This document shows, one piece after another, positions 11,995 through 64,000 of a stretch of DNA of 64,000 nt (the first letter of the stretch is position 1; each line of letters opens with the position of its first letter). The translations under genes and the position numbers were made by a program. Location of the stretch: positions 7,440,001-7,504,000 of the forward strand of contig CP126193.1 of assembly GCA_030272155.1 (NCBI GenBank), read 5' to 3'. The stretch comes from Tetradesmus obliquus. Its lineage: Eukaryota; Chlorophyta; Chlorophyceae; Sphaeropleales; Scenedesmaceae. A model generated the notes under the pieces. It ran no database searches and had not been told where the DNA came from. It worked only from the letters and a program-made list of their open reading frames with translations.

Positions 11995-12288
11995 ATGCCC
12001 TGCATGCTTGCACCTTTCCTGCAGGCACAGCAGCACAGCATGCAACCCAACCAGCCACCCCCGTGGCACCAGGCTCAACCACCACATCAGCCACAACTGC
12101 CAGGGCAGCAGTGGGACCAGCTGCAGCAACAGCAGCAGCAGCAGCCACAACTGCAAGGGCAGCCGTGGGGCCAGCCTCAGCAGCAGCAGCAGCAGCAGCA
12201 ACTGCCAGGGCAGCAGTTTGACCAGCCACACCAGCAGCAGCAACAGCCAGGGCAGCCGTGGGGTCAGCACCACCACCACCACCACCAC

Positions 12289-12329
<41 letters not shown>

Positions 12330-12505
12330 ACAACCGCCAGAGCAACAGCGGGTGCCGCAGGTGCTGCATCAGCAGCAGCAGCAGCAGCAGCAGCAGCGGC
12401 CACACAGCCCAGGTGTGGGCTTTCCTGCACCACCATGGCACACGCAGGTAGGGCAGCCACCTCCTCAAATCACAGCACAGGCGGTTGTGCCAGCTCAGCA
12501 AGGCC

Positions 12506-12550
<45 letters not shown>

Positions 12551-13440
12551 CTATCAGGGGCTACCCAGTCAACCAGCGCGCACTGGACAGGCCACCTCAG
12601 TATGACGTCGCATCCATGCAGGGGCTGGGGCTAGGGTTAGGGCTGGGTGGGGCGCGACCCATGCTACGAGCACAACCGCAGCAGCTGGCAGGCGTGTACA
12701 GGCAGCCCAACAGGCAACCTGTTCTGGCATTGGAATTGCCGCCGCAGCCGCCGCCACCGCCGTCACCACAGCAGCAGCAGCTGCAACAGCTGCTGTCGCC
12801 ACCATGGCAGCAAGTTGTGAGCAAGAAGGCGCGGCGGGAAGGCAAGGCTGCAGCGGCTGCTGCTCCTGCTGCTGTTGCTGCACCACCACCACCAGCAGCA
12901 GCAGCAGCAGCAGCACTGCACCGCGGGCAACAGCAGCAGGGGCAGCATGGGCAGCAGCGGAAACGGCAGCGGGATGATCCCAAGTCGCAACAGCAGCAGC
13001 AGCAGCAGCAGAACGAACAGCAGCTCAAACAGCAGCAGCAGCACAAACAGCAGCAACATCCACCTGTGCAACAGTCTAAGAAGAAGAGCAAGAAGCAGAA
13101 GAGGCAGGAGCGCAAGCAGCAACAAAAGGAACAGCAGCAACACCAGCGAGAGCAGGAGCAGCAGCAGCAGCTAATGCGTGAAGCTGATCGTCCAGTCAAA
13201 AAGGCCCGTGTGGCAGATGCCGCTGCCGCTGGTTCTGCTGATTTCAAGGGCGCTGGCGGTAGCAAGCCTGGCAAGCACGCAAGCGCCCGGCCTGCTGCTG
13301 GATCTGCAGCAGCAGCGGCAGCAGCAGAGTGTGACCACTTGAACATTTTGGACCTGTGCTTGAGACGGCTGAGGTGCAGCACGCAGGATGGCACCTGGAC
13401 AACAAAGCAGCTGCACAACGAGTGCATGCAGGTGGCCAAG
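11995..13440 (+). other. NOV exon 1, Gln/His/Pro-rich low-complexity leader (unit 2)
   Basis: 482 codons, opened by the first ATG after an in-frame TAG at 11971. It contains poly-Gln with WGQ/GQPW spacers, an eight-His run, poly-Ala, then a basic Lys/Gln segment (KKKSKKQKRQERKQQQ) resembling a nuclear localisation signal. It ends in an ordered-looking stretch (LDLCLRRLRCSTQDGTW) before GCCAAG|GTGATT. A TGCAG acceptor at about 12024 means the true start could instead be ATG 12040. Assignment to NOV rests on phase-compatible splicing, not on homology. Confidence 0.6.
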
Positions 13441-15051
13441 GTGATTGTAGCTGCTGCACGCATGTCAGCGCCTGGGCCCAATGTAGTCTGCTTTTGCAGT
13501 AGGAGCTGCCGGAGGTTGCTGCTAAGGGAGAGTGCTTGTGCAACATCTTGCAGGATTTATCCCTATTCTAGCCCTGCTGGGCAACACGAATGATGCAGCA
13601 ACACCTAGTTTGAAGTTTCACACGCCTGCAGCATGGTGTATGTTTGTATAGTCAAACACATTGGCTGAAGTCTTTGACAAGCAAACACAACATACTCCCA
13701 TGCGCGCTGCAATCGTGCTGCGGCCGCTGTAACGCGCTTCCAGGCACATGGTGTAAAACCAATGGCGGCCGTAGTTTGGAGACCCATGCTGGAGTCCTAC
13801 CTGCTGGGGCTGTTTTGTCCAACCGAGCAGCAGCAGCGGTCCAACCAGGCAGCTGCGGTGCAGGCGGCCACTCTGGCAGTTCAGGGCGCGGCGCGTGTCA
13901 CGCATGTGAGTACTGCAGCTCATCCAGAGGGAGCAGAAACTACATGCAGGCACAGCGAGTGCTGTTTGTTCAATCAGCACAGGCTGTCTTAACCCAGGCA
14001 TGCGCAAATACAGCATACAGCAGATTCCAAACATAAACTGCTCAAGCAAGCAGGTGAGCTGTGTTAGCAGCGGATTTATACAGCAGGGTGGCGTGTGCAG
14101 GATGTTCTGTTTCCTGCAAGCGTCTTGAATGTCAGCAGCACAAGTTGCACAGCAGCACCCAGCTCGGGTGCCTTCAGAGGCCAATCTTCACAGGCCAACC
14201 AGCTTTGTGCGCATGAGGGCTCTCTGTTTGCCTGCTGCCTGCTGCTGCTCCACACAGGTGTCGCATGGAAGCGAAGACGACGACGACGAAGAAGAGAAGC
14301 AGCAGCAGGAGCAGCAGCAAGAGCCTGGCAGCAGCAGCACACCAGCTACGGCAGCTGGCGCAGCGGCAAGCATACGTGTCAACTGGCCACAGCAACGACC
14401 GCAAGAGCCACTGCAGGCGCCGCTGCTACCATCCTCAGCTGCTGCAGCTGCTGCTGGTGGTGGTGTACCTGGTGCAAGCAGCCTTTGTGAGCGACGCAGT
14501 GCTGCAGCGGCAACTGCTTTTGCAGGCGGCAGTAGCAGTGCTCCTGCAACTGCACGGCTCGCTGCAGCTGACAGTGATGGTGATGTGGTGATTGTGGATG
14601 AGAGGCCAGCACCCAAGCTGACAGCAGCAGCAGCAGCAGCAGCACCACCTGCAGCAGCAGCAGCAGCAGCAGTAGGAGGAGGAGCAGTAGCAGGCGGCTC
14701 AGCAGGCGAAGCAGCTGCAGCTGCAGCTGCTGGCACTTTCAGTGCTGCTGCTGTCAGGTGGCCAGCATTCGACGCAGCGCTGCTGGACAGGGGAATGGTG
14801 CTGCCACTGGTGTGGAACGCAGCTGCCTTTGACAAGTTTGTGTGCAAGTTTGTGACCAGCAGGTAGGGTGAGGTGCTGCTGAGCTTGCACAGCTGGCCCG
14901 CAAGAACTGCCGCTTCCCCGTGTATGCTTGCATAGTGATCTGCATGCAGCAGCATGTAGTGTGCAGCACGCAGCTCCAGGCGGCTCAGTGATTTGGCTTG
15001 CATGTACCGTTCTGTGTACACGCGCCCTTGCCAGCACCGTTGCCCTCCAAT

Positions 15052-15102
15052 GTACCAGATTGTACCAGATCGTACCAGATTGTACCAGATTGTACCAGAT
15101 TG
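15052..15102. repeat. 10-bp tandem repeat in NOV intron 3 (unit 2)
   Basis: Five tandem copies of GTACCAGATT (one with a T to C change) lie about 20 bp upstream of the exon 4 acceptor. The same array occurs in unit 3 at 38958-39009. Confidence 0.9.
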
Positions 15103-15400
15103 TGCTGGCTGTCTTTGCGCAGGCGAGTTGCCACCCTCTGGGACCTCAGGCAGCAGCTGCTAGCTCTGCACGGACTGCGGCAGCACCCCCGCGCGCTGGA
15201 GCAGACACGCCTGCTACTGCAGCTGTCACCACCTGCATATGCAGGGGGTCAGGCAGCAGGGCTGATGGTGTCACCAGCAGCACGGCGCTTCTTTTCTCCT
15301 GCAGCGGAGCTGGCAGAAGTGCCTGCGGTGAGTTTTTATGCAACAGCTGCAGCAGCTTCTGATACAAAGAGCAGAGGGAAAGTAACGCTGCTTTGCAACA

Positions 15401-15459
15401 TGGTGTCACCAGCAGTGCAGCGCTTCTTCTCTGCAGCAGGACTAGCAGAGGTGCCTGCG
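15401..15459 (+). repeat. Duplicated 3' end of NOV exon 4 with donor (unit 2)
   Basis: About 59 bp repeats the end of exon 4 (15269-15327, encoding VSPAARRFF..AELAEVPA) at roughly 85% identity, reading VSPAVQRFF..AGLAEVPA, and again meets a GT (GTGGGT) at the same point. It has no acceptor of its own. The unit 3 equivalent is 39307-39365. Confidence 0.85.
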
Positions 15460-17187: not shown

Positions 17188-17220
<33 letters not shown>

Positions 17221-18317: not shown

Positions 18318-18348
<31 letters not shown>

Positions 18349-18651: not shown

Positions 18652-18698
18652 CCGCGCCGCAGCTGGCTGAGCTGCACAGCTGGTCTAGCTGGCAACAG
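18652..18698 (+). repeat. Duplicated 3' end of NOV exon 9 with donor (unit 2)
   Basis: Repeats the exon 9 end (PQLAELHGWSSWQQ|GTGCGT at 18526) as PQLAELHSWSSWQQ|GTGGGA about 170 bp into the intron. The unit 3 copy is 43746-43792. Confidence 0.88.
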
Positions 18699-19886: not shown

Positions 19887-20009
19887 GTGAGGACGCTCAA
19901 GCTCTCTAGCAGCAGCAACAGCTGTTTCAAGGTGTACTTCGCTTGAGATCATGGTAGTTCAGGTCGTATGTTGCACAGCAATGCATGTTGAAGTTGAACT
20001 CAGCAATGC

Positions 20010-23901: not shown

Positions 23902-23905
<4 letters not shown>

Positions 23906-23944: not shown

Positions 23945-23945
<1 letters not shown>

Positions 23946-36456: not shown

Positions 36457-39400
36457 CTATCAGGGGCTACCCAGTCAACCAGCGCGCACTGGACAGGCCA
36501 CCTCAGTATGACGTCGCATCCATGCAGGGGCTGGGGCTAGGGTTAGGGCTGGGTGGGGCGCGACCCATGCTACGAGCACAACCGCAGCAGCTGGCAGGCG
36601 TGTACAGGCAGCCCAACAGGCAACCTGTTCTGGCATTGGAATTGCCGCCGCAGCCGCCGCCACCGCCGTCACCACAGCAGCAGCAGCTGCAACAGCTGCT
36701 GTCGCCACCATGGCAGCAAGTCGTGAGCAAGAAGGCGCGGCGGGAAGGCAAGGCTGCAGCGGCTGCTGCTCCTGCTGCTGTTGCTGCACCACCACCACCA
36801 GCAGCAGCAGCAGCAGCAGCACTGCACCGCGGGCAACAGCAGCAGGGGCAGCATGGGCAGCAGCGGAAACGGCAGCGGGATGATCCCAAGTCGCAACAGC
36901 AGCAGCAGCAGCAGCAGAACGAACAGCAGCTCAAACAGCAGCAGCAGCACAAACAGCAGCAACATCCACCTGTGCAACAGTCTAAGAAGAAGAGCAAGAA
37001 GCAGAAGAGGCAGGAGCGCAAGCAGCAACAAAAGGAACAGCAGCAACACCAGCGAGAGCAGGAGCAGCAGCAGCAGCTAATGCGTGAAGCTGATCGTCCA
37101 GTCAAAAAGGCCCGTGTGGCAGATGCCGCTGCCGCTGGTTCTGTTGATTTCAAGGGCGCCGGCGGTAGCAAGCCTGGCAAGCACGCAAGCGCCCGGCCTG
37201 CTGCTGGATCTGCAGCAGCAGCGGCAGCAGCAGAGTGTCACCACTTGAACATTTTGGACCTGTGCTTGAGACGGCTGAGGTGCAGCACGCAGGATGGCAC
37301 CTGGACAACAAAGCAGCTGCACAACGAGTGCATGCAGGTGGCCAAGGTGATTGTAGCTGCTGCACGCATGTCAGCGCCTGGGCCCAATGTAGTCTGCTTT
37401 TGCAGTAGGAGCTGCCGGAGGTTGCTGCTAAGGGAGAGTGCTTGTGCAACATCTTGCAGGATTTATCCCTATTCTAGCCCTGCTGGGCAACACGAATGAT
37501 GCAGCAACACCTAGTTTGAAGTTTCACACGCCTGCAGCATTGTGTATGTTTGTATAGTCAAACACATTGGCTGAAGTCTTTGACAAGCAAACACAACATA
37601 CTCCCATGCGCGCTGCAATCGTGCTGCGGCCGCTGTAACGCGCTTCCAGGCACATGGTGTAAAACCAATGGCGGCCGTAGTTTGGAGACCCATGCTGGAG
37701 TCCTACCTGCTGGGGCTGTTTTGTCCAACCGAGCAGCAGCAGCGGTCCAACCAGGCAGCTGCGGTGCAGGCGGCCACTCTGGCAGTTCAGGGCGCGGCGC
37801 GTGTCACGCATGTGAGTACTGCAGCTCATCCAGAGGGAGCAGAAACTACATGCAGGCACAGCGAGTGCTGTTTGTTCAATCAGCACAGGCTGTCTTAACC
37901 CAGGCATGCGCAAATACAGCATACAGCAGATTCCAAACATAAACTGCTCAAGCAAGCAGGTGAGCTGTGTTAGCAGCGGATTTATACAGCAGGGTGGCGT
38001 GTGCAGGATGTTCTGTTTCCTGCAAGCGTCTTGAATGTCAGCAGCACAAGTTGCACAGCAGCACCCAGCTCGGGTGCCTTCAGAGGCCAATCTTCACAGG
38101 CCAACCAGCTTTGTGCGCTTGAGGGCTCTCTGTTTGCCTGCTGCCTGCTGCTGCTCCACACAGGTGTCGCATGGAAGCGAAGACGACGACGACGAAGAAG
38201 AGAAGCAGCAGCAGGAGCAGCAGCAAGAGCCTGGCAGCAGCAGCACACCAGCTACGGCAGCTGGCGCAGCGGCAAGCATACGTGTCAACTGGCCACAGCA
38301 ACGACCGCAAGAGCCACTGCAGGCGCCGCTGCTACCATCCTCAGCTGCTGCAGCTGCTGCTGGTGGTGGTGTACCTGGTGCAAGCAGCCTTTGTGAGCGA
38401 CGCAGTGCTGCAGCGGCAACTGCTTTTGCAGGCGGCAGTAGCAGTGCTCCTGCAACTGCACGTCTCGCTGCAGCTGACAGTGATGGTGATGTGGTGATTG
38501 TGGATGAGAGGCCAGCACCCAAGCTGACAGCAGCAGCAGCAGCAGCAGCACCACCTGCAGCAGCAGCAGCAGCAGCAGTAGGAGGAGGAGCAGTAGCAGG
38601 CGGCTCAGCAGGCGAAGCAGCTGCAGCTGCAGCTGCTGGCACTTTCAGTGCTGCTGCTGTCAGGTGGCCAGCATTCGACGCAGCGCTGCTGGACAGGGGA
38701 ATGGTGCTGCCACTGGTGTGGAACGCAGCTGCCTTTGACAAGTTTGTGTGCAAGTTTGTGACCAGCAGGTAGGGTGAGGTGCTGCTGAGCTTGCACAGCT
38801 GGCCCGCAAGAACTGCCGCTTCCCCGTGTGTGCTTGCATAGTGATCTGCATGCAGCAGCATGTAGTGTGCAGCACGCAGCTCCAGGCGGCTCAGTGATTT
38901 GGCTTGCATGTACCGTTCTGTGTACACGCGCCCTTGCCAGCACCGTTGCCCTCCAATGTACCAGATTGTACCAGATCGTACCAGATTGTACCAGATTGTA
39001 CCAGATTGTGCTGGCTGTCTTTGCGCAGGCGAGTTGCCACCCTCTGGGACCTCAGGCAGCAGCTGCTAGCTCTGCACGGACTGCGGCAGCACCCCCGCGC
39101 GCTGGAGCAGACACGCCTGCTACTGCAGCTGTCACCACCTGCATATGCAGGGGGTCAGGCAGCAGGGCTGATGGTGTCACCAGCAGCACGGCGCTTCTTT
39201 TCTCCTGCAGCGGAGCTGGCAGAAGTGCCTGCGGTGAGTTTTTATGCAACAGCTGCAGCAGCTTCTGATACAAAGAGCAGAGGGAAAGTAACGCTGCTTT
39301 GCAACATGGTGTCACCAGCAGTGCAGCGCTTCTTCTCTGCAGCAGGACTAGCAGAGGTGCCTGCGGTGGGTGCAGCGGCTGCAGTAGCTCCTGGCTTAGC

Positions 39401-42400
39401 GTATGGATCAGCGCTGTCATGTAACAGGCATCCTGTTTGCGGGTGCTGTTGTGCAGAAGTAGAGCTGCGTGCTGTTGCGGTTGATGTGCAGCACCGTGGT
39501 CAAGAAACCCGCAGATGCCGGGGTTGCTGCGCTGTTGCAGTGTGCTGCACCTGAATACTTTTGTTTTTTATCGGCCAAGAACGCTGAGAAGCTGTGGCAT
39601 TCGCACGCCTGGCAGCTGCCAGGGATGCCTGCAGCCTACATCGGAGCATAGATGCCACGATTTCTCTGTGTGTCATCGTTCAGAGCAACCTGTAGCAACA
39701 ATAGTAACATCGGTGTCAACTGCATGCAGGTGACTGCCAGGGGCATCGCACATGCAGTGCTGTGCCGCGAGCTGCGGCTGTGGCTGGCAGCTGCTGCGCC
39801 GACACATGCCCAAGGCACAGGGGAGAACACACGGCTGGAAGAGCAGCACAGCGCTGACCTGCTGCCCCAAGCCCTACAGGTGAGTCCGGCAGCTGCTGCT
39901 CTGATATTGTGTACTGCTGTCTTCTGTCTGGCGCAGTTGTGCTGCAAATATCGCTAAGAATGGCATCTGCGGTTGACACAGGTGCAGCGTGATGTCTTTT
40001 GTCGTGCTGTGGCATGCTGCACGCCCGCAAAATGATGCGCCGTGTTGCGTGTGCCGCAGGACCTTCAGCCGGCACGGCACGGCAGCGCAGCAGGTGCGCA
40101 GCCGCATCCTAATAGCTACGTTCATGTTGCAGAGCCGCAGCAGCTACCTGCAGAAGCATTAAGGCTAGTGACAGATGCGCTGCATGCAGCAGAGGCAGCG
40201 CTGCTGTCCCTCATGCTAACGCAGCAGCAGCAGCCGTCAGACTCAGCAGCCACGCCACCAACCAAGAAAGACTACCAGGATCTGGAAGTGCTGTATGCAG
40301 CACAAGCGGCTGGCGCAGCAGCAGCAGCAGCAGCATCAGAAGCAGAAGCTGAAGCAGCAGCAGGCTCAGGAGCAGCAGCTGTGGCGGGTGCTGAGTTAGG
40401 GGCTGCGGCTGGGGCTCTGCATCCGCTGCAGCCACTGCAGCAGCAGCAGCAGCAGCTGCAACCATTGTCAGCTGCTGCCGAGCAATCAGCAGCAACGACG
40501 ACGCAGCGTCAACGGCAGCAAGAGCGGGAGGAGTGGCAGCAGCGGTGGCAGCAGCGGCAGCAGGAGCGGCAGCAGGAGCGGCAGCAGGAGCGGCAGCAGG
40601 AGCGGGAGCAGCAGCAGGCAGGCACTGTGTGGGTGCCTGATAAATTGGGTCTGCCTGAGGGCAAGTACCAAGCTCTACTGGAGAAGGTGGCATTGATGGC
40701 CGAGGTGTGTGTGACTTTTGATGTATTTGTTGCTGAGTCAGTCAGCCTATCAAAAGGCTGGCGGCACCGTCTTTTAGCATGTTGGACTGCACTTTGCCCA
40801 GCTGCACATTCTATCAGCCTGTCAGCCAATTAGCGGCCTTGCTGCACAGCCTAGACATATGCTGGTATGCTAGCAGTCTGGCAGCGCAGCGCTTGACTTG
40901 ACTGCAAAAGCAAGATTTCCGTCAGGGCCAGCTGCCGACCAAAGCAGAGTGCTTGCGCAAGCAGCAACCCAGCTCAGTCAGCAGACCTGAGAAGACATAA
41001 GCCTGCTGCACTGCAGTCGCACTCCAGATGAGCTTGCTCGTCACTGCAGCGCAACGCAATTTAACTGTTGTTCAGCTGAACCGTTTCTGCTTTGCTTTTG
41101 TGCTGCGGGTGTGCAGGCAACTTTGAAGAGCAGGGCCTGCTTTTCTGAGCAGGGGTACCTGGCGGCCTTTGCTGGAAACCTAGCAGGTGCGGCCACAGGG
41201 TTCAGGTTCAGCAGTGAGAACATGACATGGACGAAACGGTTTAGGTTGAGCAATTTGGCAGGTGTGGCCACAGGGTTTGGGTTTAGCAGTGAGAACATGA
41301 AACAGACGAAAAGGTTTGGGTTCAGCAGTTTGGCAGGTGTGGCGACAGGGTTGAGGTTCAGCAGAGAGAACATGAAATGAATGGAAAGGTTTAGGTTTGG
41401 CGGTTTGGCAGGCGTGGCCACAGGGTTGAGGTTTAGCAGTGAGAACATGACATGGACGAATAGGTTTAGGTTTAGCAGTTGGGCAGGTGTGGCTACAGCT
41501 GCAGCCTTGTCATGAGCATAGCTTGCCATCTCCAAACAGGCTGCCATACAACAGTCTGCCATTGATGCGTGATGTGCTACATGCTGCAACATATAATGAT
41601 GCGATAAGGCGAGGACCTCTTCAGCCGTATTTTGGGTTTCTTGCTCCCGCTTGTTCTATTGCCGGTTAATGTACAGTGTTTGGTAACAAAAAGGTTTAAC
41701 AATATCGAGTGCTTGGAGTCTTGTGCCATTGTGACGCAAACCAACGGTGTGTGGCGGCTTGCTTCATTGCTGTGGCTATCATGACCACTACATTCAGCCA
41801 CGCCAGATCATGCATTCTCCCGGCACATGCCATGTGTTCAGTTGCATTGCTGCTTGCTGATCTGCACTGCTGCAGAGCTCGCCACAGAGGCGCAGGAGCT
41901 TACAGGCTGCCAGGGTGCCTGCGCAAAAAACCCTTGCAGTTTGCAAGGCGTACAGAGGCCTGTTCTGAAGGTGCTGCTGCAGCTGCTGCAGCACGTACTG
42001 TTCTATGCTGTTAATGGCCGCATTGGTGAGCTGTACATGAAAGGCACACCAGCAAAGCCCGCTGCTGCTGCGGGTGGTGCTGCTGCTGCAGCAGCAGCAG
42101 CCGGCGGTTATACGGCAGACGGTGCCAAGGGCAGCAGCAGTGGCAGCAGTGCTGCAGAGCGGCTTGCTAATGCGCTGCTGCAGCTGCGTGAGGCGTTTGT
42201 GGCGCTGTTTCCTGTGGGGAAGCAGTACAGCGCTGCAGAGGTTGTAAAGCAGCAGCACCTTGTGGCTGGGCGTCTGCAACAGGCACAGCAGCAGCAGCAG
42301 CAGCAGCAGCAGCGTGTGGTTTCATGCAAGGGCAATGAAGATGGTGGTGCAGCTACCGGGGCAACAAGGGCAGCAGCAGCAGCAGCGGCAGCGCAGGAGT

Positions 42401-43408: not shown

Positions 43409-43442
<34 letters not shown>

Positions 43443-44441
43443 TATAGCCAATCAACTGGCAGCGGATCAGTCATTGCAGCTTAGGCAGGAAGTGCCCGAA
43501 GGAGCAGCAGCAGGAGACTCTGCAGGTGCTGCTGGGTCTGTCAGCGTTGAAGATGCGCTGTGCTGCTTGGCTGCAGCGCCGCAGCTGGCTGAGCTGCATG
43601 GCTGGTCCAGCTGGCAACAGGTGCGTAGCACGCAGCCAAGTTGGCACACGCCGTGTTCTTGTGTTGATCAAGGGCGCGTCGCTGTGGTATGGCTTGGTGG
43701 ACTGAAGCCTGCTTGTGGGCGGTGTGTGTTTGATCAGCAGGGCTGCCGCGCCGCAGCTGGCTGAGCTGCACAGCTGGTCTAGCTGGCAACAGGTGGGAGC
43801 ACGCAGCAGTGGCAAGTCTGCATGGGCTTGATGCTGGCATGCAGTACTGGGCAACAGTCGGCATGTGACCTGCTGTTTGTTTCCCTTGTACTGCTCTCCC
43901 TTTTGTGGCCCAAGCTGCTGGCAACGCTGATGTGCTTGGCATGATATTCCTATTTGGATCACCGAACTTATCTTGCCTTGGTGTCTTGTCAAAGCAAGGA
44001 TCCGCCCAAGCGTGCTGTCTTCTGCTGCTGCTGTCCTTTTCCAGGTGTACCAACCCAGCTTGGGGCCCCTGGCGCAGTTCCTGGCAGCACACGGCGCTGC
44101 ATCCAGACTGTTGGTGCTGTCCGTGCCAGCACCAGCTGCTGCTGCATGTGGCGCAATGCCTGGCCAGCAGCAGCAGCAGAAGCAGCAGCAGCAGCTGCTG
44201 AAGCTGGATGCGTCTGCCAGCAGGGATCAGCTGATGCAGTGCAGCAGCAAGGTGCGCCTGGCTGCATGCATCTGCAGCAGCAGCAGCAGCGCCGATTGCT
44301 GTGATTATTAGCTTGCAAGGTTGATTCTGTGCAGACAGCAGCTGTGAACAGCAGTTACAGTGACTGTCAGGACCTCTGCGCACTGGATACTTTCTGGTTG
44401 TTTGTTCTGTGTTGTGTCTTCGCTGACACCAATCGCCAATC

Positions 44442-44488: not shown

Positions 44489-47400
44489 GCCGCTGCAGGG
44501 TGATGGTGTGGGTGCTGTCAGCTGTGCATTGTCGCTGGTGGCGCTGTCAGCCGGGCTGCGCTTTGCACCTCTCAGCCTGATGGCTGAGCACATTGCAGCA
44601 GGCCTGCAGGTGCTGGCAGCCAAACACAGGTGCGGCACGCCTGCAGGACGTCGCAGTGCTTTTCTGGTTACTTCCGCGTTCCGCGTGTGGGTGCTGGTGC
44701 AGCTTCAGTATTGCGTTTGCGCAACTGTTCTCTTCTGCACATGCTCAGATGCCCTGCACAACCCACAGCACTGAGCCTGATGGCTGAGTGCATTGCAGCT
44801 GGCCTGCAGGTGCTGGCAGCTAAGCACAGGTGTGGCATGGTCGGAAGGTCTAGCTACCACACATAATCTCTCTTTCTTTGCCTGTGCGTACGCCTGTGTA
44901 GTTGTGCCCATGTAAATTTAGCCGTGTTGGGGGATTGCTAGAAAGCGTGTATCTGATTGATTGATTGACTGATTGATTGGGATTGCTGTTGCATCCTGCG
45001 CATGCTCAGATGCCCTGCACATTCTGTGGCATACAAGCAGCACCTGCGATGCCTTTGGTTTTTTCTTCCTTGCCTGCACCCTGTGGACGTTGCACTTGCA
45101 GGGGTGAAGCACAGCCAAGCAGCTTACACAGCAGCAGCCGAGACTCTTCCTCAGCAGCAGCAGCAGCAGCAGCCGCAGCGCTGCCAGCAGCATCAGCCGG
45201 CGCACATGCAGCTGCCTCATTCGTCTTACGCTGCCTTGTGCTGCTGCCAGCACCGCTGACAGTCTCTCTTGGTGAACAGCTGCTGCTGCAGCCTCTCTAC
45301 AGCCTCATAGGCAGCAGTGCAGCTGCACAGGGGTTGCTGCTTGAGGTGGCTAGCACTGCTGCTGCAGAGGCAGCGGCTGTGGCACACACAACTGCAGCAG
45401 CAGCGGCAGCGGCAGCGGCAGCAGCGAGGCAGCCATACAGTGCAGAGCTATCTGTGCTGCATGTGTTGGGTTGGCAGCTGGGGATCAGTGTGTGGCAGGA
45501 GGACTGGCAGAGGCGATGCAGAGCGCCAGCTGCTGCTGGTGGTGCTGTGGGTGATGCTGGAGGAAGGGGCGGCGATGCTCAGCCGTCTATGGATGCTGGT
45601 GATGCAAAGGTGAGGACAGCTGTTTGAGGTGTACTGTACTTGAGATCTCAATGGTGGTGGTGCTGCTGGTGATGCTGGAGGAACTGCGGCTGGCAGCGGC
45701 AGCGATGCTCAGCCTTCTACGGATGCTGGTGATGCAAAGGTGAGGACATTCAAGCTCTCCAGCAGCAGCAACAGCTGTTTGAGGTGTACTGTACTCGACA
45801 TGTCAATGGGGTGGTGGTGCTGTGGATGATGCTGGAGGAAGTGGGGCTGGCAGAGGCGGCGCTTTTGAGCATGTTGCAGGCGTTAGGGATGCGCAGGTGA
45901 GGACGCTCAAGCTCTGTAGAAGCAGCAACAGCTGTTTGGACGTGGATTTTGCATGAGATCATGATGCTTCCAATTGGAGGAAGTGTGGCTGGCCGCGGCG
46001 GGGCTGTTGAGAAGGGTGCTGGGGATGCGAAGGTGAGGACGCTCAAGCTCTCTAGCAGCAGCAACAGCTGTTTCAAGGTGTACTTCGCATGAGATCATGG
46101 TAGTTCAGGTCGTATGTTGCACAGCAATGCATGTTGAAGTTGAACTCAGCAATGCCAGGTGTACCAGCATGTTGGTGCCCTGATACAAAACAGGTGTACC
46201 AGCATGTTGGTGCCCTGATACAAAACAGGTGTACCAGCATGTTGGTGCCCTGATACAAAACAGGTGTACCAGCATGTTGGTGCCCTGATACAAAACAGGT
46301 GTACCAGCATGTTGGTGCCCTGATACAAAACAGGTGTACCAGCATGTTGGTGCCCTGATACAAAACAGGTGTACCAGCATGTTGGTGCCCTGATACAAAA
46401 CAGGTGTACCAGCATGTTGGTGCCCTGATACAAAACAGGTGTACCAGCATGTTGGTGCCCTGATACAAAACAGGTGTACCAGCATGTTGGTGCCCTGATA
46501 CAAAACAACGCCACTCACAGCTGCTGCTGTGCTGCTGCTTGCATGCCTGCAGGCACTCCTCGCCTCAGCAGGGGCCCACCCGGCAAGTGACGCTGCACAG
46601 GCTGCGCTGCACAAGCTGCTGATGCGGCTGCAGCAGCAGCAGCAGCAGCAGCCTGCTGGCAGTCACGCTGCCAGTGCAGCTCTTAGTGGTGGTGATGGTG
46701 TACCTGCAAGCAATGCTGCAGCCGCACCTGCCTCAAGCTTGATCAGCAGCACCACATTGCCAGCAGCAGCAGATGCGCAGGCAGCAGCAGAGCGAGAAGC
46801 TGCAGCTAAGCAGGCAGTGGAAGCTATCCGAGCTCGGGAGTTTGGTGTGGGGCTGGGCCTGAAAGGGCCTGCTGGGCAGCTGATGGCTGCTCAGAATGCG
46901 CGGCTGGGGCGGGCGCTGCAGCGGCTGAGCCAGGAGCTGTACAGCAGCAGCAGCCATTTCGTGCTGGAGCTGGTGCAGGTGTGTTATATAACATGTTACT
47001 GTGTTACATGATGTTGCCATGGTGGGTGGGCGATTGGAAGTCAGTTGCCTTGGTTGGCATGTGTGTGCTCTTGCATTATGGTGATTGATGCGCGCATGCT
47101 AGTGTACTGGTTTGGGCTCCAATTTAAATTAGGGCATCTGTGCAGGTGGCGCGCATGTGTATGCATAGCTATTGTCTGCATGCCATGCACTACATTGTGC
47201 CTTAAGAGATGAGATGGGAGTCCCGGTCCTGGGGGCTACCGCATGAGTAGTTGCTCCAGTGTTCCGCCACACACCCGCGGCGTACCGTCTGCAGACCAGC
47301 TGCCAATACATTGCGGGCGCTGCTGCTGCAGCTTTGTGCGCTACAGAATGCGGACGACAATTGCTACCAGCAAGACACCGTGCGTGCGCTGGAGACCCTG

Positions 47401-50361
47401 CTGCTGCCTGCACCATCTGAGGTGTGTCTGATTACTGCTACTGCTTCTGCTGCTGCTGCTGCTGCTTCTGCCCTGCAGAATGCGGATGACAACCGCTACC
47501 CGCCAGCTGCCGTGCCTGCGCTGGAGTTCCTGCTGCTGCCAAACTTCATTGCAGCACTCAACAACGAGGCGGGGCTGAGCGCAGCAGACCTGGCGGCGCT
47601 GTGTGACATCGGGGCATCCACCAAACTGGAGCAGCGTTGTATTGGCTACAAGGGCATAGGCTTCAAGAGCGTGTTCAAGGTGCGGTTTCAAGGCGCCGGG
47701 TTCTATGATTGCAGAGATTGGTTGGGTGAGCTGCCCAATTGTCTGTCACTGCGCCACCACGCTGCAAAATGTTGCGTTTGTGCTGTAGCTGCTCTGCCGC
47801 GACATTGCACTCTGTGACGCATCACCAGCAGGGCACCCTACTGCCGTGGCATTCACCACCAGGCTATGCCTGCTGCCAGCTGCTTCTTGGTGTTCTGAGT
47901 GTCCACATCTGCTTGCCAACTCCCTGCATCAGGCAACTGATGTGCCACAGCAACTGATGCGTGCATCCCTACGCTGTGCCCACCACTGACTGCTTATGTG
48001 GCTTCTATGCTCTGCAGATGGCATCATTGAAGCAAAGCGCGCAGGCTTCAAGTGCACAAGCTGCAGCACAGTTGTGTGGCAGCAGCCGGAGGACTTCCTG
48101 CGCGTCCAGGCATGGCCTGCATCTCTGAGCTCAAGTCACGTGCGGTGCGTGTGCGGTGACGTCAAACTGCGTCTTACTCTGCCAGCAACTAGCCAGCAAC
48201 CCCTGTTGGAAGTGTGTAGTAATGATATTCAACTGTATGTAATGGTATGTAGCATGTGCTGTAAGCCTGACATCTTTTTTACTTGCTGCATCATCAGCCT
48301 ACCTCTCACCACAGTGGGCACATCTTTATCAGGGTTGCTGTCTCTGCTGTTGCAACACAGGACTGTGGTGGATGTGGCACTGCTTCAGCTGTGGGACTCC
48401 ATGCGGCTGTGCAACCCTACCATCTCATTGAGTGGCTTCCTGAAGGGCATCGTGGACGCCGTGGCCGTTCTGCCACCCACGCAAGTGCGTCTCTGGCACG
48501 CGCATCACCCTGCATGCTTGTTTTGCTTGCTGTGTGCGCCCGGCTGACCATTCTGATCGCCCTTGCATGCACCTTTCTGCTGTGTAGCCGCGTCGAGAGA
48601 TCAACATGCGCACCTTCCGCCGCGCACATCGCGAGTACAAGTTCTGCCAGACGGACCTGCGGCTTGGTCTGCAGCTGCTGAACGACCTGGAGTGCCCAGC
48701 ATGCAGTGACGGCATGGCTGGCGTGCATATCGACGCCAACATGAAGCTGTTCACCTGGCTGCGGCACAGGGAGCTGTGGCGGCAGCAGCACTACAGCGAG
48801 TTCTTTGCAGACGATGCAAGCGTGCAGCCGAGTCTGCAAGCCCTGGACTTGGCAATGGGCAGCACGGTGAGGATTGTGCTGCTGTGCCACATGCTGCCTT
48901 GCATCAATAGATAGAGGCTGCCCCACGTGAACTGTCGCAACATAACATGCGCCTGTAGCTGGTACGTTTAGTGAACAACATGTGCGTTGCAATGATTGGC
49001 TTGTTGGCTGCTGTTGTGACAGTGTGCAGTGTACAGATCAGCAGCGCCATAGCCTTGCAACGTCTGAGCTGCCTACTGGGCTGTGCTGCCTGCAACCTTT
49101 ACTTGAGCATGCGCAGCTCGCGTCCCAGACAACATCTGCAATGGCTTGTGGGCTGCGGCATCTGATGGCCAGCAACGGCGGCAGGCTCAGCAGAAGATCA
49201 CAGGGCGCTGTGTGGGTGAGTATGGCATGGCCCTGTTTTCCCTGCATGAACATGCAGCGCACGGGCTGGAATGGCCCTTTTCTTCTGCTCTGGACATGCA
49301 GCGCACGGGCTGGCATGACTCTTATATGCTGCCCTTGTCGTCATTGCGGCCTTCCCTTTGGACAGTGCATTTGCCCTCACGTGATGACTTACTTCGTGTT
49401 GCGACTGCACTGCAGCAACCGATGCACGACATGGCGGGCCAATAGCAGCCGCCAACCTGATTGGCAGTGGCGAGCGCTATGGCTATGCCTTCCACATCGC
49501 TGCCCATAACCTCATGACCAGTGGTCTGCAACAGCTGCACATTGACATCATGTGTCAGTGGGCGGCTTGGAGCGAGCGCGTCGTTGAAGCGCTGCAGCGA
49601 TACCAACCTCCCACCAGCACGCAGCAGCAGCAACCTCTGCATCAGCAGGAGGAGCTGCAGCAGTTGCAGCAGCGCATACAAGAGCTGCGTGATCTGGTGT
49701 GCACCGGCAGCTGGGGTGCTGTGCGCAAGGCCTTGTCACACGCGCATGGCACGCTGCACTCGCAGGCTTGTCAGATGTTGTGGCAGCCTGGGTGGACCAG
49801 CGGCTGCGCCAAAACCCTGGGCGAGGAGTGCGAGCAGCTGTTTTCCCACCTGTCCAGGTTTTCTGGTACAACGCGGAACCAAAGCTCAGCAGGTGGGTGG
49901 GCTGCGCATCTGTGCAGCATTCCGCGGTCTGGTTGCCACATAATCAGGTTTTTGCTTGGCGCTAGCTGCCCTGGGTTGGCAGTTTACAAGTGCTGCCCGA
50001 TGGGACTGTTGCTGCATCACATCTGATGTTGCTGCAGGCTCCTCAGATGCACTGACTGAGGCGGCACTGCACTTTGGCCGGCAGAAGCGAGCAAAGCAGT
50101 CTCTGCTGCTTGTCCAGCGCTACAAGAAGTTCAAGGAGCAGGAGACCAGGGCAGAGGCTGAGCGGCAGCTGGCCAGCCTTGAGCAGACACCGCCACAGGA
50201 AAGGGAGCAGCTTGTGCGGGACCTGCACGATGAGCTACGGGCCATGGCGCGAGGTGCGACAACAATCGCTATTGTTCTGCTTCTTGGTGGTTCCGTACTT
50301 GCAGCTTGCAACAGCAACAGAACTGCAGGTGCCTGCAGCCGCATTTTGCATGCCTGCACTG

Positions 50362-59300: not shown

Positions 59301-62205
59301 CGCGCATCACCCTGCATGCTTGTTTTGCTTGCTGTGTGCGCCCGGCTGACCATTCTGATCGCCCTTGCATGCACCTTTCTGCTGTGCAGCCGCGTCGAGA
59401 GATCAACATGCGCACCTTCCGCCGCGCACATCGCGAGTACAAGTTCTGCCAGACGGACCTGCGGCTTGGTCTGCAGCTGCTGAACGACCTGGAGTGCCCA
59501 GCATGCAGTGACGGCATGGCTGGCGTGCATATCGACGCCAACATGAAGCTGTTCACCTGGCTGCGGCACAGGGAGCTGTGGCGGCAGCAGCACTACAGCG
59601 AGTTCTTTGCAGACGATGCAAGCGTGCTGCCGAGTCTGCAAGCCCTGGACTTGGCAATGGGCAGCACGGTGAGGATTGTGCTGCTGTGCCACATGCTGCC
59701 TTGCATCAATAGATAGAGGCTGCCCCACGTGAACTGTCGCAACATAACATGCGCCTGTAGCTGGTACGTTTAGTGAACAACATGTGCGTTGCAATGATTG
59801 GCTTGTTGGCTGCTGTTGTGACAGTGTGCAGTGTACAGATCAGCAGCGCCATAGCCTTGCAACGTCTGAGCTGCCTACTGGGCTGTGCTGCCTGCAACCT
59901 TTACTTGAGCATGCGCAGCTCGCGTCCCAGACAACATCTGCACTCCCTTGAAATGCGCTTCCCTGCGCCAGGTCACTGACGCGCCCCAGGTGCACAGCAA
60001 CGGCTTCCACGTCTGCTTTGACCTGGCGGCAGACGCCACACTGGGCTACATGCCGGCTTGCGACCGTTCTGGCGTCTGTGCTGCCACTTCTGCCATTCTG
60101 CTGCAACATCTCACCTACGGCACATCAACAGCCAGGCACTCTGCTGGCGTGTGCCTTATCTTGCTTTGCCAACTGACTGCTTCTGCGGCTTGCTTTGTTT
60201 TTGTGATTTTCTTTGCGCCAGGTCACCGACTCGCCCCAGGTGCACAGCAACGGCTTCCACGTCTGCTTTGACCTGGCGGCAGACGCCACACTGGGCTACA
60301 TCCTGCCAACCTGGCTGGAGCCAGCTGATCGCACAGCAGCAGGTGAGCTGTGTGGTATGGTTCAGCAGCTACTACAACTGAATCATGTGGTCCTGCATGT
60401 TATCAATGGGTATGGTTAAACCTGGCGGCAGACGCCACGCTGGGCTACATACTGCGCACCTGGCTGGAGCCGGCGGAATGTGAGGCAGCAGGTGAGCTGT
60501 CTGGTGTGGTTCAGCAGCTACTGTATGTGACTAGTTTGGTCCTGAATGTTTCTAATAATACTGCTTCGACTTGGCGGCAGACGCCACGCTGGGCTACATC
60601 CTGCCGACCTGGCTGGAGCCGTCTGACTGCGCGGCAGCAGGTGAGCTGTGTGGTATGGTGTGGTTCAGCAGCTACCTCCATGAATTATCTGGCCCTGCAT
60701 AGTGTCAATGGGTATGGTTAAACCTGGCAGCAGACGCCACGCTGGGCTACATCCTGCCCACCTGGCTGGAGCACGCCGACTGCGCGGCAGCCTGTGAGCA
60801 TAACTCTGCTCTTTGGACTTGTGCGTGAGCTCATATTCAATGGTACTTTTCATGTGCTGGAAGGAAAGGCAGCTGGAGCTGTCTGTCTTTTTTGTGTTCA
60901 CCTTTGTCGCAAGACTAGTGCCGCCGCCACGCTTGCCACCAATGTGAAACCCATACAAATACAAGTCACCTTTGCTGCCTGTGACTCCCACCCTCACATC
61001 ATATCACATGTTATCACTCAAAAACAATTTTCCTGCAGGTGCTGCTGCATCCTCAAGCCGTCTCGGCCTGCACTACCCCAGCTGCACAACCATCCTGCTA
61101 CCCCTCAAGCCATCCCTGCTGCCACACACCTCCAGCAGCAGCAGCAGCAACCAGCAGCAGCAGCAGCAGCAGCAGGCCCTGCGGCAGCGCTTCCAAGAGC
61201 TTCGCCCCACGCTGCTGCTGTTCCTGGGGCAGCTTGCCTGCATTTGTGTGACTGATGTGCTGCAGCCGCAGCGCAGCAGCGTGATGCTGCGGCGGCAGCT
61301 GGAGAGGGGCGTGGTGCAGCTGCGGCACGGGCCTGGTGCACAGCATGCGGAGCATTGGCTGCTCGTGAGGTGAGTGGAGGGATGAGCAGGCAGCGCTGTA
61401 GTGTAAAGCTAGATGTTTGTGGTGTGGCAGGTAGACGTTGGTGGTGATTTTGAAGCATGCCGCCTGTATTGCATCTGGCCTGTGGATGTGCACACACCCT
61501 TACAAGCTCGTCACAGCCACGCCTTGGCTTTGGAGTGGGGTGGGGTGGCCCGGGCGTGGTGCAGCTGCCTGGTGCACAGCACGCGGAGCACTGGCTGCTT
61601 GTGAGGTGAGGCGGTGGGATGGGCAGCACTGTAATGTAAAGCGTGTAGCGGCTGCAGGGCAGCTGCGTTGTGGTGGTTATGGAGCATGCCAACGCCTGTG
61701 TGGCTTCTGCCAGCATAGCTTTGCACTTGCTTGCAAGCTCACAGCAGCCGTACCCTGCACTCGCACTTCTCACCACTGTCCACCGTCTCAAAACGCTCTC
61801 ATTTATTCATGCCTATCTGCAGGTCCTCGGTGACGCTGCCTACAGCTTGGCACAGCCGCTTCCAGCAGCAGCTCAACAGCAGCAGCAGCAGCAGCAGCAA
61901 ACTTGCCCACAGCAGCAGCAGCACCACCACCACTTCCACGCAGCTCGCCCTAGCTTTCCAGCTGGACCAGCCACAGCACCCGCAGCAGCAGCAGGTGCAT
62001 GCATATCTACCATTGCGCAGCTACGGGCTGCGCTTTGTGCTGCAGGCAGACTGGCAAGTACCGAGCAGCAGGGAAGCAGTGGATGCAGATAGCTGCTGGA
62101 ATCAGGCTCTTAGGGATGAGGTGCCTGGCATGCTGCTTGCTGCAATGCAGGCTTTCGCAAGCCTGGCAGATGCCAGCAGCAGCGCTGATGGATTAGGCAA
62201 TGCAC

Positions 62206-62236
<31 letters not shown>

Positions 62237-63559
62237 TGCGGAAGGCAGTGCTGCAGGTGGTGCTTGTGCAGCAGCGCTTCCCAGCTTGAGCCGGGAGGCC
62301 TGGATCGACTGCTGGCTGCGCACGCTGCCGCTGGAAGGGGAGGCGCAGGGCTTCTTTGCTGCCCTGCCGTACAGGTGAGGACGGCAGCAGTAAGCTTCGC
62401 TGGTTCACGCTTAGTCGCGCGCTGTGTGCAAGCACTTGTGGGCGCAGGGTCGCAATGCTATGCAGAGTACAGTTTTGCCAGGTACTGTAGAGCATGGCAT
62501 GCATGGCGCTGGAAGAGGAGGCGCAGCGCTTGTTTGCTGCACTGCCGCACAGGTAAGGGGAGGGTGGTGCTTTCAAAGTATACCATTGGCGTGCAAGGCG
62601 CTTGGTTGGGGGAGCTGCGCGCATTATGCAAAAGATGCGTGGGCGCAAAGCTGCTGTGCTATACCGAAGGTAGAGAAGGACGGTACCTGTCAAACCTTTT
62701 CAAAAAATGATGATCGCCACACACGGCGCCTGTCGAGTGCAGTGTGCGCCGTGTTCCAGCACGTGTGGGCGCAGGGCCTGCGATGCTACATGTAGATTTC
62801 AGCAGGTGGTGGGCATTATAGCATGTGTTTCAGCCGCTGGAACATCACGCTAAATGTAAGGCTGCAAAGCTTGGTACAGCACCTTGACACGCTCTTTGGC
62901 CGCCATGCATGCCTGCTGCCTTACTGCGCCTGCTGTGCCTGCTGCCTGACTCCATCTGCTGCAGTGTGGCCGCTCTGCTGCGCAACAGCTGCTGCATTCC
63001 CACAGAGTCTGGCGATCTCTGCCGCCCCTGCGACGTCCTCGTCTGCAACAGCAGCAGCGTGCGGCAGCTGGTCACGCAGCAGCAGCTGCAGCAGCTACTG
63101 AACAAGCACTTTTGCCACCCAGATGTGACAGTGCTGCACACCAGCGCTGCGCTGCGTGCTGCGCTCGGCGTAGGAGAGTGCTCGCCCATGCAAGTTGTGC
63201 AGCTGATTGGTCAGATGGCAGATGCAGGGAAGTTGCAGCAGCAGGGCATCAGCTGGGTGCAGCGTATGCTGCTGTGCTTGTTTGCTATGCTGGAAGCTAC
63301 AGCAGCAGGACCTGCAGGGTTTGGCAGCAGCAACAGCAGCAGCAGACGTACACCTGGGATGGCTTCTCCAAACAGCAGGCCGAGCCCTGCTGCTGCTGCT
63401 GCTGCTGCTGCTGGCAGTACTGGTGCAGCTGCAGATGCTGCTGGCTCCTGGGCGGTGCAAGTGGCGCAGCTAGGCAGGAGCAGCGTGATCAGGCAGCTGC
63501 GTAAGCTGCAGATCTTGCCCCTGCAGGATGGGAGCTTCGTCAGCCTAGAGCCACTCAGC

Positions 63560-63601
<42 letters not shown>

Positions 63602-63776
63602 GCGGCAGCAGCGCACACAGGCGCACAGCCAGCTCCTGTAAAGCAGCCCAATGCAGCAGCAGCAGCAGCAGTGGCAGCGGTGGTGGGGCCAACGGCAGTG
63701 TTCTTCCCCTTGCAGAATCCTGCAGCTGCTGCTGCCACCAGCCCCAGACCGCCCAGGAGGCCTGTAGCAATGGGGT

Positions 63777-63813
<37 letters not shown>

Positions 63814-64000
63814 CACTCCAGCCAGCCCTGGCCTCACCAGTAGCAGCCCTTCAGCCTTACATGCATCACCTGCCACTCCTTCAACACCTGCTGCTGCTGC
63901 TACTGGCGCTGCTGCTGCTGGTGCAGACAGCCTGGCGCAGCTGCTGCAGGAGGCTGGTGTTGATGAGGGCTGGCTGCAGCCTGGGCTGGCGCTGCTGTCT
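35904..64000 (+). CDS. NOV: NO VEIN (NOV)-like nuclear GHKL ATPase, parental copy, 3' end beyond window
   Basis: Homologue of plant NO VEIN, a very large nuclear protein with a sacsin/Hsp90-type ATPase fold, required in Arabidopsis for vascular patterning and cell fate; its algal role is unknown. Exons: 35904-37346, 37650-37811, 38164-38768, 39029-39233, 39730-39879, 40060-40704, 41117-41186, 41876-42982, 43109-43620, 44045-44251, 44499-44629, 45102-45609, 46553-46978, 47479-47679, 60222-60342, 61039-61369, 61823-62374, 62965-64000+. All junction phases agree and no exon has a stop (about 2,804 codons). Landmarks: ARLGRALQRLSQELY, N box LVQ|NADDN, ALNNEAGLS, G2 box GYKGIGFKSVFK|VTD, LHYPSCTTILLPLK, LRPTLLLFL, LPLRSYGLRF, QADWQVPSSREAVD, GEAQGFFAALP, LRKLQILPLQDGSFVSL. 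Intron 14 (12.5 kb) holds a KDZ insert. Start and exons 1-4 are less certain than exons 8-18. Confidence 0.87.
38958..39009. repeat. 10-bp tandem repeat in NOV intron 3 (unit 3)
   Basis: Same five-copy GTACCAGATT array as at 15052-15102. Confidence 0.9.
39307..39365 (+). repeat. Duplicated 3' end of NOV exon 4 with donor (unit 3)
   Basis: Same as 15401-15459. Here the intron continues normally to exon 5, so this is an extra donor inside intron 4. Confidence 0.85.
41183..41492. repeat. 75-bp minisatellite starting at the NOV exon 7 donor (unit 3)
   Basis: Same 75-bp period as in unit 2, with a handful of substitutions. Each period repeats GGCAG|GTGTGG. Confidence 0.9.
43746..43792 (+). repeat. 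Duplicated 3' end of NOV exon 9 with donor (unit 3)
   Basis: PQLAELHSWSSWQQ|GTGGGA, a second copy of the exon 9 end at 43620. Confidence 0.88.
44771..44829 (+). repeat. Duplicated 3' end of NOV exon 11 with donor
   Basis: Repeats the end of exon 11 (SLMAEHIAAGLQVLAAKH, to 44629) as SLMAECIAAGLQVLAAKH followed by AG|GTGTGG, 200 bp downstream. It is absent from unit 2, where the whole block is deleted. Confidence 0.88.
45640..46032 (+). repeat. Three duplicated ends of NOV exon 12 with donors (unit 3)
   Basis: Copies end at 45739, 45896 and 46032, each before GTGAGG, as in unit 2. Confidence 0.85.
46156..46505. repeat. 35-bp minisatellite, ten perfect copies, in NOV intron 12
   Basis: Ten identical head-to-tail copies of a 35-bp unit beginning CAGGTGTACCAGCATGTTGG and ending GATACAAAA. 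Unit 2 has one copy. The perfect identity points to very recent expansion. The minus strand reads through it as a 35-residue repetitive frame, which I consider fortuitous. The array ends about 47 bp before the exon 13 acceptor and could affect splicing. Confidence 0.97.
47347..47421 (+). other. Alternative N-box micro-exon of NOV (unit 3)
   Basis: As at 20885-20959, 25 codons with both splice sites. In this unit it reads ALETLLLP instead of ALEFLLLP. Confidence 0.58.
48001..49140 (+). repeat. Direct repeat R, left copy (unit 3)
   Basis: Shares with the right copy of the same unit (58803-59942) two variants, CTGCCACCC and GCAGCTCGCG. The first is absent from unit 2 and the second is absent from the unit 2 right copy. 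Confidence 0.92.
48867..50253 (+). pseudogene. KDZ transposase, C-terminal half (unit 3)
   Basis: Equivalent to 22407-23793, essentially identical over the second catalytic Asp (HIDIMCQW) and Glu (GEECEQLF) motifs. Last recognised exon 50038-50253. Confidence 0.84.
50363..50398. repeat. (CTG)n microsatellite (unit 3)
   Basis: Two triplets shorter than the unit 2 run. Confidence 0.9.
51397..53200 (+). pseudogene. SET-domain methyltransferase fragment with extra exon duplication (unit 3)
   Basis: As in units 1 and 2, with TAG at 52472-52474. It also has a 142-bp insertion (about 51540-51681) that duplicates intron plus the start of exon A, giving a second CAG|GTGCTGCACAGCAGGTGC junction. Exon B is 51974-52149. 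Confidence 0.78.
53242..53282. repeat. Imperfect palindrome (unit 3)
   Basis: Same as 2732-2772. About 70 bp downstream, near 53343-53367, a 15-bp duplication (GGCAATTACCAC twice) is private to this unit. Confidence 0.7.
54230..54574 (-). CDS. Possible small membrane ORF (unit 3)
   Basis: Open like the other copies but with about five replacements (for example Phe to Ser near residue 8 and Val to Leu near residue 78), more than expected for a conserved gene in so recent a duplication. Confidence 0.2.
   Translation of the reverse strand: MSCCAGDSPVLRWVPPLLVVLVTLVLLITAVLKHGWAALTPTPFWGWLGFWGVWGAAVTALELKQPWLWLVQLLAQVLSWGTEKPKELVMVIIIVLVGGMVVLLLYKSGALAHA
55396..55584 (-). CDS. Possible Cys-rich exon of a minus-strand gene (unit 3)
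   Basis: Cys spacing is preserved relative to 4880-5068; one replacement (Cys to Tyr in the SMEC motif) weakens a zinc-binding role. Confidence 0.2.
   Translation of the reverse strand: MQRPPVAHASSCCQLFCKTMCWSHGKVFCSPSCHSSMEYKPIDYASWVITLRVPTKQRFARA
56616..56790 (-). CDS. Coiled-coil first exon of minus-strand gene, divergent allele (unit 3)
   Basis: Fifteen bases shorter than in units 1 and 2, in frame, with a cluster of about 13 substitutions in about 61 bp that changes residues conservatively (KRQLQDAS to KKQLEDAI) while keeping heptads, GDRELLL and the donor. Confidence 0.52.
57563..59942 (+). pseudogene. KDZ transposase, N-terminal half (unit 3)
   Basis: Zinc-finger exon to 58198, then 58291-58442, 58532-58633, 58820-58946, 59163-59286 and 59390-59668. 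Minor differences from units 1 and 2 include Phe to Cys in SGCFEAEP. The GCAGCTCGCG variant shifts the frame at the start of the next exon. Confidence 0.84.
58803..59942 (+). repeat. Direct repeat R, right copy (unit 3)
   Basis: Right-hand partner of 48001-49140. It is immediately followed by the NOV exon 15a acceptor region. Confidence 0.92.
59972..60795 (+). repeat. NOV exon 15 and its partial tandem copies (unit 3)
   Basis: Copy a starts at 59972, the functional copy b is 60222-60342, and partial copies c (60421-60491), d (60571-60640) and e (about 60723-60790) repeat LAADATLGYILxTWLEP. Donors GTGAGC are present in b, c and d; e reads CAGCCTGTGAGC and has lost the AGGT. Confidence 0.88.
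61550..61605 (+). repeat. Duplicated 3' end of NOV exon 16 with donor
   Basis: GTGGTGCAGCTG..GCACAGCACGCGGAGCACTGGCTGCT.GTGAG|GTGAGG repeats the exon 16 end at 61369. The similarity continues into the intron (GCAGCRCTGTARTGTAAAGC and GGAGCATGCC), so a segment of about 236 bp spanning the splice site was duplicated in tandem. Confidence 0.9.
62504..62552 (+). repeat. Duplicated 3' end of NOV exon 17 with donor
   Basis: GCTGGAAGAGGAGGCGCAGC..TTTGCTGCACTGCCGCACAG|GTAAGG repeats the exon 17 end at 62374. Downstream intron motifs (TGTGGGCGCAGGG near 62440 and 62764) are also repeated, at about 320-bp spacing. Confidence 0.88.
62553..62964. other. NOV intron 17, remainder
   Basis: No exon is required here: exon 17 (phase 2) and exon 18 (one-base start) join directly, as in plant NOV where FFSSLP is followed at once by the next conserved segment. 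Confidence 0.65.

Follow-up and report, generated by a model that had tools for sequence, protein, structure and literature searches.

Introns that carry degenerate copies of the edges of their own exons raise the question of whether such copies come from a process aimed at exon ends or from a more general kind of duplication. We address it at the NO VEIN (NOV) gene of the green alga Tetradesmus obliquus, in a stretch of 64,000 nucleotides (the window, C3:7440001-7504000; C3 is CP126193.1, in an assembly of 104.66 Mb in 17 contigs) where a first-pass annotation had described recurrent tandem duplication of exon ends, with their 5' splice site, into the next intron. Exon-edge copies in introns are real, occur beyond chance and are not confined to NOV. 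The reading we favour, with a probability of about 0.7, is that short direct tandem duplication is pervasive in this genome and, filtered by selection, lengthens existing introns and strands decaying exon edges in them.

Exon edges copied within NOV

Gene models were obtained with a self-written ab initio hidden Markov model (HMM), for which NOV exons picked by eye served as the seed and all sampled sequence as the training set. The HMM learned GTGAG-like donors and CAG acceptors. Over 199.6 kb it returned 201 introns, of which 153 reach 120 nt or more. All exon-edge statistics given below depend on these models, which contain errors. The window has a GC content of 56% and a eukaryotic content (introns, the NOV gene), with CAG/GCA runs abundant in exons; a passage of PMC5966456 gives a GC content of 57% and a mean intron of 462 bp for T. 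obliquus.

The gene had been correctly named, since predicted pieces match Pfam NOV_C (PF13020, E=2e-16) and SACS (PF25794, E=6e-12). Positions 11995-64000 are not one gene, the window holding two of five tandem units. Six NOV exon 3' ends in the window (39233, 43620, 44629, 45609, 61369 and 62374) recur in the next intron, and a seventh at 64060, 60 bases past the window, is copied too, its second copy being modelled by the HMM as a small exon. These second copies, hereafter ghosts, sit 130-255 bp downstream of the real ends. With one exon start copied upstream and one exon repeated in a 149-bp array, there are eight sites in the window and nine with 64060, so that the initial figure of at least nine NOV exons is reached only by counting the end outside; its exon numbering could not be reproduced. 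The features, in window positions and with arrays from Tandem Repeats Finder (TRF), are as follows.

39171..39233, + strand: real 3' end of NOV exon 39056-39233 (HMM), donor GTGAGT; exon part 63 nt, spacing 135
39306..39368, + strand: ghost of exon end 39233, followed by GTGGGT
~15266-15328 and 15401-15463: equivalent of the 39233 pair, identified by eye in the second NOV copy of the window
43569..43620, + strand: real 3' end of NOV exon 43247-43620, donor GTGCGT; spacing 172
43741..43792, + strand: ghost of exon end 43620 (GTGGGA)
44566..44629, + strand: real 3' end of NOV exon 44499-44629, donor GTGCGG; spacing 200
44766..44829, + strand: ghost of exon end 44629 (GTGTGG)
45531..45609, + strand: real 3' end of NOV exon 45102-45609, donor GTGAGG; spacing 130
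45661..45739, + strand: ghost of exon end 45609 (GTGAGG)
45616..45938, + strand: 157-bp tandem array around the 45609 ghost, 2.1 copies, with further GTGAGG copies (TRF)
61307..61369, + strand: real 3' end of NOV exon 61039-61369, donor GTGAGT; spacing 245
61552..61757, + strand: ghost of exon end 61369 and intron start (GTGAGG)
62320..62374, + strand: real 3' end of NOV exon 61823-62374, donor GTGAGG; spacing 177
62497..62551, + strand: ghost of exon end 62374 (GTAAGG)
47352..47408, + strand: acceptor-side ghost, an exon start copied upstream of its real counterpart; the HMM merges both into one exon
47484..47540, + strand: real start of that exon, the NADDN exon of the SACS region (Pfam SACS)
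60261..60799, + strand: 149-bp array in which a NOV exon piece (...ATLGYILPTWLEP...) recurs, its edges splice-like (TRF)

The similarity had been said to run across the splice junction, which is true of some NOV ends, where it extends into the intron for 46 nt (43620) or 149 nt (61369). In the other NOV copy, further GTGAGG copies like those around the 45609 ghost (19470-19900) and the two acceptor-like starts matching those at 47352 and 47484 are visible by eye. More edge copies follow beyond the window, on the donor side at 68147, 70908, 71780 and 73690 and on the acceptor side at 69753, 70725, 75019 and 75519.

Edge copies and direct repeats in the sampled genome

The sample comprised the NOV stretch, which includes transposon and neighbouring gene models, and 14 non-NOV stretches: 13 of 10 kb at fixed coordinates and the 10 kb upstream of the tandem array. 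Each exon-end 60-mer was compared with its own adjacent intron at a score of at least 100, leaving out introns below 120 nt and exons below 30 nt, which kept 153 of the 201 introns. Counts are given for the 14 stretches, the NOV stretch and, where pooled, all stretches.

Exon ends, own adjacent intron: 13/96; 11/46; pooled 24/142
Exon starts, own adjacent intron: 9/89; 5/41; pooled 14/130
Exon ends, introns of other loci: 0/384; 2/184; pooled 2/568
Exon middles, downstream intron: 0/41; 1/25; pooled 1/66
Exon middles, upstream intron: 1/37; 1/20; pooled 2/57
Exon starts, downstream intron: 0/41; 0/25
Intron 60-mers, rest of own intron: 17/292; 26/160; pooled 43/452

With ends and starts combined, the adjacent intron holds a copy for 38 of the 272 exon edges. 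Direct duplications across 5' splice sites recur along the gene, as the first-pass annotation held, and other genes of the genome show the pattern as well. The annotation had also set exon 3' ends against exon middles and purely intronic sequence. Copies of exon middles are indeed rare, and on this point, as on the occurrence in other genes, the annotation's reading is not refuted, but intronic sequence is often copied and exon starts are copied as well. Exon ends exceed the intron 60-mers (p=0.02, with 60-mers that are not independent of one another). That exon middles are seldom copied and that exon ends surpass intron interiors would both be expected from selection together with a slower decay of exon-anchored pairs.

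Protein profiles provided further examples in a kinesin (L037), two helicases (L038 and L039) and a kinase (L042). As a counting method the profile-overlap screen was dropped: among the matches listed by four family searches that gave 92, 157, 154 and 23 matches, and with overlaps of about 15 positions or less left out, eight overlaps picked by eye yielded four real copies and four cases of profile over-extension (L040, L041, L043 and L044), which are ruled out as exon copies. By eye, one and the same kinesin intron contains two copies of the exon end and six of the start of the following exon.

At the kinesin locus (C2:7430401-7432700, minus strand) the six exon-start units are ~136 bp long and CTG tracts flank them; such trinucleotide tracts may seed duplications there. 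A second sacsin-like locus (L029, C3, ~970.3-973.6k) is preceded by a ~182-bp array and shows duplicated pieces with spacings of 275 and 414.

The repeats are local and direct. Pairs less than 500 bp apart number 97 direct and 0 inverted, and clusters within 1.2 kb number 62 direct against 2 inverted (both at a score of at least 120, in 199.6 kb); two close direct copies are also what internal gene duplication produces. Their number declines with distance, from 68 pairs below 500 bp to 18 at 500-1000 bp and 0-6 per 500-bp bin beyond (blast score of at least 130, 159.6 kb, low-complexity sequence masked). Local direct repeats are found within introns, exons and intergenic DNA too. An apparent tendency of exonic copies to keep the frame was seen and is partly circular, the HMM requiring an open frame, and it was not used.

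Where introns measure a few hundred bp, a unit of ~100-300 bp is likely to cross an edge in many cases. If 25 clusters were placed uniformly, 6.5 would be expected at the donor, 6.5 at the acceptor and 12.0 in the interior. The classified clusters comprise 14 donor (one of them not placeable), 4 acceptor and 8 interior cases. Ambiguous clusters, numbering 15 out of 40 for the 14 stretches and 7 out of 22 for the NOV stretch, are outside this count. Taken together, edges show no significant excess over the interior (p=0.11).

The annotation had further invoked the duplication of AGGT-containing exon segments, a model of intron birth, and a systematic enlargement of introns. None of 141 introns carries the Rogers signature of such a birth (exon tail resembling intron tail in register, or intron head resembling the next exon's head), at a cut-off of at least 60% identity over 30 nt in either comparison, a test that sees only recent gains, as old ones have decayed. 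On this evidence the duplications lengthen existing introns and do not make new ones. "Systematic" is too strong a word for this lengthening: counting one unit each and ignoring further array units, edge copies account for roughly 2,754 of the 59,561 bases of intron (4.6%) that the 14 non-NOV stretches contain.

Decay of the ghosts and competing explanations

Mechanistically, short direct tandem duplication with units of mostly ~100-300 bp would be pervasive in the nuclear genome and land anywhere. Units inside exons would probably often be purged by selection, while intronic and intergenic units would persist. When a unit lies across an exon edge, the exon-proximal splice site would still work and the protein would be unchanged; the second edge and its splice site would be stranded in the intron and decay neutrally beside a real exon that stays conserved. 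With decay on one side only, edge copies would stay recognisable longer than intron-intron copies, and the outcome would be longer existing introns and decoy splice sites. Slippage or unequal exchange may produce the duplications, and the role given to selection is likewise our inference.

The decay of the ghosts is consistent with this scheme. In a pool of 17 donor pairs (several hand-added from ambiguous clusters, four acceptor pairs left out, and one, L028:5426, perhaps a stop codon and not a donor), 131 of 1031 exon-part sites are mismatched (12.7%), against 122 of 626 (19.5%) in the intron part, a value taken from aligned parts only and hence too low. Masked pairs and unmasked gapped extension disagree on some pairs, for instance L045 and L028:5426, where the unmasked match is nearer or longer. 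Exon-part mismatches fall on codon positions 1/2/3 as 35/38/58, a third-position share of 44% (confidence interval 36-53%), and the exon:intron mismatch ratio is 0.65; by our own estimate, a neutral ghost beside a constrained exon should show about 47% and 0.67. The copies usually keep a GT donor at the homologous position, as first reported (16 of 22 donor ghosts, 6 being without it), and AG is kept in 13 of 14 acceptor ghosts. The 16 ghost donors with GT average 6.4 bits against 6.7 for the real ones; the ghost scores below its real donor in 6 pairs, ties with it in 9 and exceeds it in 1. Of 36 spacings, 10 are multiples of 3, with no frame bias, and because of this the exon-proximal site is mostly the only one that keeps the frame; it is probably the one used. 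Most ghosts do not look coding, and in the pooled sample their decay appears near-neutral.

Several points weigh against tandem duplication filtered by selection, and they are set out here with the alternatives. Two concern the measurements: the underestimated intron divergence weakens the neutrality test, and some classified edges are doubtful (L025:9302, L028:5426 and L048:9768, in ab initio models over 199.6 kb). The others concern the length, placement and coding appearance of the copies.

Copy length bears on a local copy-paste process, which could act alongside tandem duplication and in which repair of an intron break would copy a short exon-edge segment (X-spacer-X'). Ten of 22 donor copies span just 0.34-0.68 of their spacing, and two fresh copies, L026:4838 (96%) and L047:591 (96%), end sharply between unrelated flanks, with spacer and following sequence unrelated (z -0.2 and 0.7 for L047:591 and L026:4838), although a simple fresh tandem unit should match throughout. 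DNA searches gave no second locus like L047 or L038, in keeping with a local source. However, 12 of 22 donor copies span at least 0.87 of the spacing, and template switching should also yield inverted copies, of which none was found below 500 bp. We regard copy-paste as unlikely. The copies that fit poorly, including those of L038 and L042 discussed below, could have arisen when a duplicated unit was later cut by deletion, when a segment was inserted locally as a copy, or when the copy once served as an alternative exon.

An impression by eye that copies generally end sharply at the splice site was rejected: when extension was gapped and unmasked, the similarity ended 0-9 nt past the splice site in no more than 5 of 22 donor copies and 10 nt before the donor in one other, a minority class. 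It is rather improbable that an additional, sense-only copying of short exon-edge segments into introns, perhaps linked to transcription or RNA, also operates, with some segments bounded near the splice consensus and some staying translatable.

Copy placement bears on the AGGT model itself, in which duplication is aimed at 3' ends as in intron birth and enlarges introns systematically. The donor:acceptor ratio of 14:4 (p=0.03) is not predicted by symmetric placement and favours this model, as does the excess of exon ends over intron 60-mers. Donor-side bias is nevertheless unproven, the larger intron-wise count of ends and starts giving p=0.16, and a special tie to 3' ends or AGGT is not called for when uniform placement already yields many edge-spanning copies. 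Moreover, duplication also affects exon starts, whole exons, introns and DNA between genes, exon-anchored pairs would be favoured by detection and decay, the Rogers signature is absent from the introns tested and the share of intron DNA is small. We consider this model quite improbable.

Finally, ghosts might be functional alternative donors, acceptors or mutually exclusive exons kept by selection. The copies in L042 (0/29 residues differing) and L038 (1/48), both with changes at the DNA level that are almost all silent, have a non-neutral look, high-identity copies seem by eye biased to third-position changes, AG retention is high, and the copy of exon end 39233, 135 bp off, is in frame and stop-free in the other NOV copy (open reading frame 14998-15543). 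Selection for function is still very unlikely for the ghosts at large, given the pooled third-position share, the six donor ghosts without GT and a spacing at which use of the ghost would usually shift the frame; L038, L042 and L039 were found by protein similarity and are a biased sample, in which L039 differs at 6/47 residues and the L038 copy, read by eye, is closely preceded by an in-frame stop and lacks an AG in its vicinity. An origin of ghosts from paralogues was discarded, there being no second locus in the two cases searched at the DNA level (L047 and L038).

The NOV array and known systems

The five tandem units, ~24-26 kb each and ~97-99.8% identical where aligned, occupy C3:7375.3k-7501k (window -64660 to 60982). 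Each consists of the NOV 5' part and a KDZ-type transposon, a label resting on a single Pfam match (CxC3, PF18804, E=3.7e-7); a predicted transposase piece had no match in Pfam. The remainder of NOV, its 3' part, is present only after the fifth and last copy, which runs from 35.9 to 47.7 kb, is followed by the transposon, resumes at 60.2 kb and extends to about 76.8 kb. Because the first of the split HMM models over this copy carries SACS and the last carries NOV_C, they probably belong to one gene.

A 1.14-kb transposon piece occurs twice per unit at ~99% identity, and the insertions look nested or doubled. NOV copies 2 and 3 lack ~39233-40130 (window 39233-40131), near one predicted intron, with short microhomology at the joint; copy 4 lacks ~39388-40565, a different deletion in the same ghost-bearing intron. 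The number of 35-bp units in the intronic array is ~10 for NOV copies 1 and 5 but a single one for copies 2-4, a difference of about 10:1 between near-identical copies that speaks for tandem duplication. Copies 1 and 5 match at 100% along 1.46 kb at this array, against 97-98% nearby, which suggests gene conversion or exchange.

8313-9453, 21542-22680, 32222-33362, 48001-49140 and 58803-59942: 1.14-kb transposon piece
41181..41498, + strand: purely intronic 75-bp tandem array, 4.2 copies (TRF)
46156..46507, + strand: purely intronic 35-bp tandem array (TRF)

These observations show how an intron can be lengthened out of its own exons with no transposon involved. If the rate sampled in the 14 stretches (13/96 exon ends) holds genome-wide, the genome contains very many natural tests of splice-site choice, each offering a pair of similar, consecutive sites where the frame usually permits only the exon-proximal one. 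For gene finders and for duplication-based claims of intron birth the results counsel caution, as exon-intron similarity can be background.

Among known systems, filler DNA made by template switching is expected in both orientations, unlike the 97 direct and 0 inverted pairs seen here. Mutually exclusive or alternative exons retain frame and splice sites, which the ghosts do not consistently do (10/36 for spacing, 16/22 for GT, 13/14 for AG), with L042 and L038 as possible exceptions. Introners, as described in a passage of PMC9860276, share with our case an effect on intron content; two ghost-bearing stretches used as queries for a dispersed family of this kind matched only themselves, in a search that skips common words.

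Intron gain by tandem duplication (Rogers 1989, Hellsten 2011, potato RdRp), as outlined in part of PMC4974935, makes a new intron from an exon copy with AGGT at both ends. Tandem duplication near AG/GT is common to both, whereas here 0/141 introns fit and existing introns are lengthened instead. The same source describes in brief the Arabidopsis TOUCH3 gene, in which a pre-existing intron was multiplied by tandem duplication. A unit with exon-intron junctions is shared, and the 149-bp array at 60261-60799 resembles TOUCH3, but most copies here carry a single edge.

Literature searches, which did not reach subscription papers, found no genome-wide description of exon-edge copies among the papers listed, and the novelty of the pattern is uncertain. 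We class it as a variant of internal gene duplication. In passages that cite Gao & Lynch 2009 (PMC4974935, PMC3488318), the latter is a direct duplication of gene parts and is called common. Direct duplication of gene parts is what the two share; the copies described here, as compared with those passages, differ in being mostly partial-exon, edge-spanning and decaying, at 38/272 edges, within a background process of duplication.

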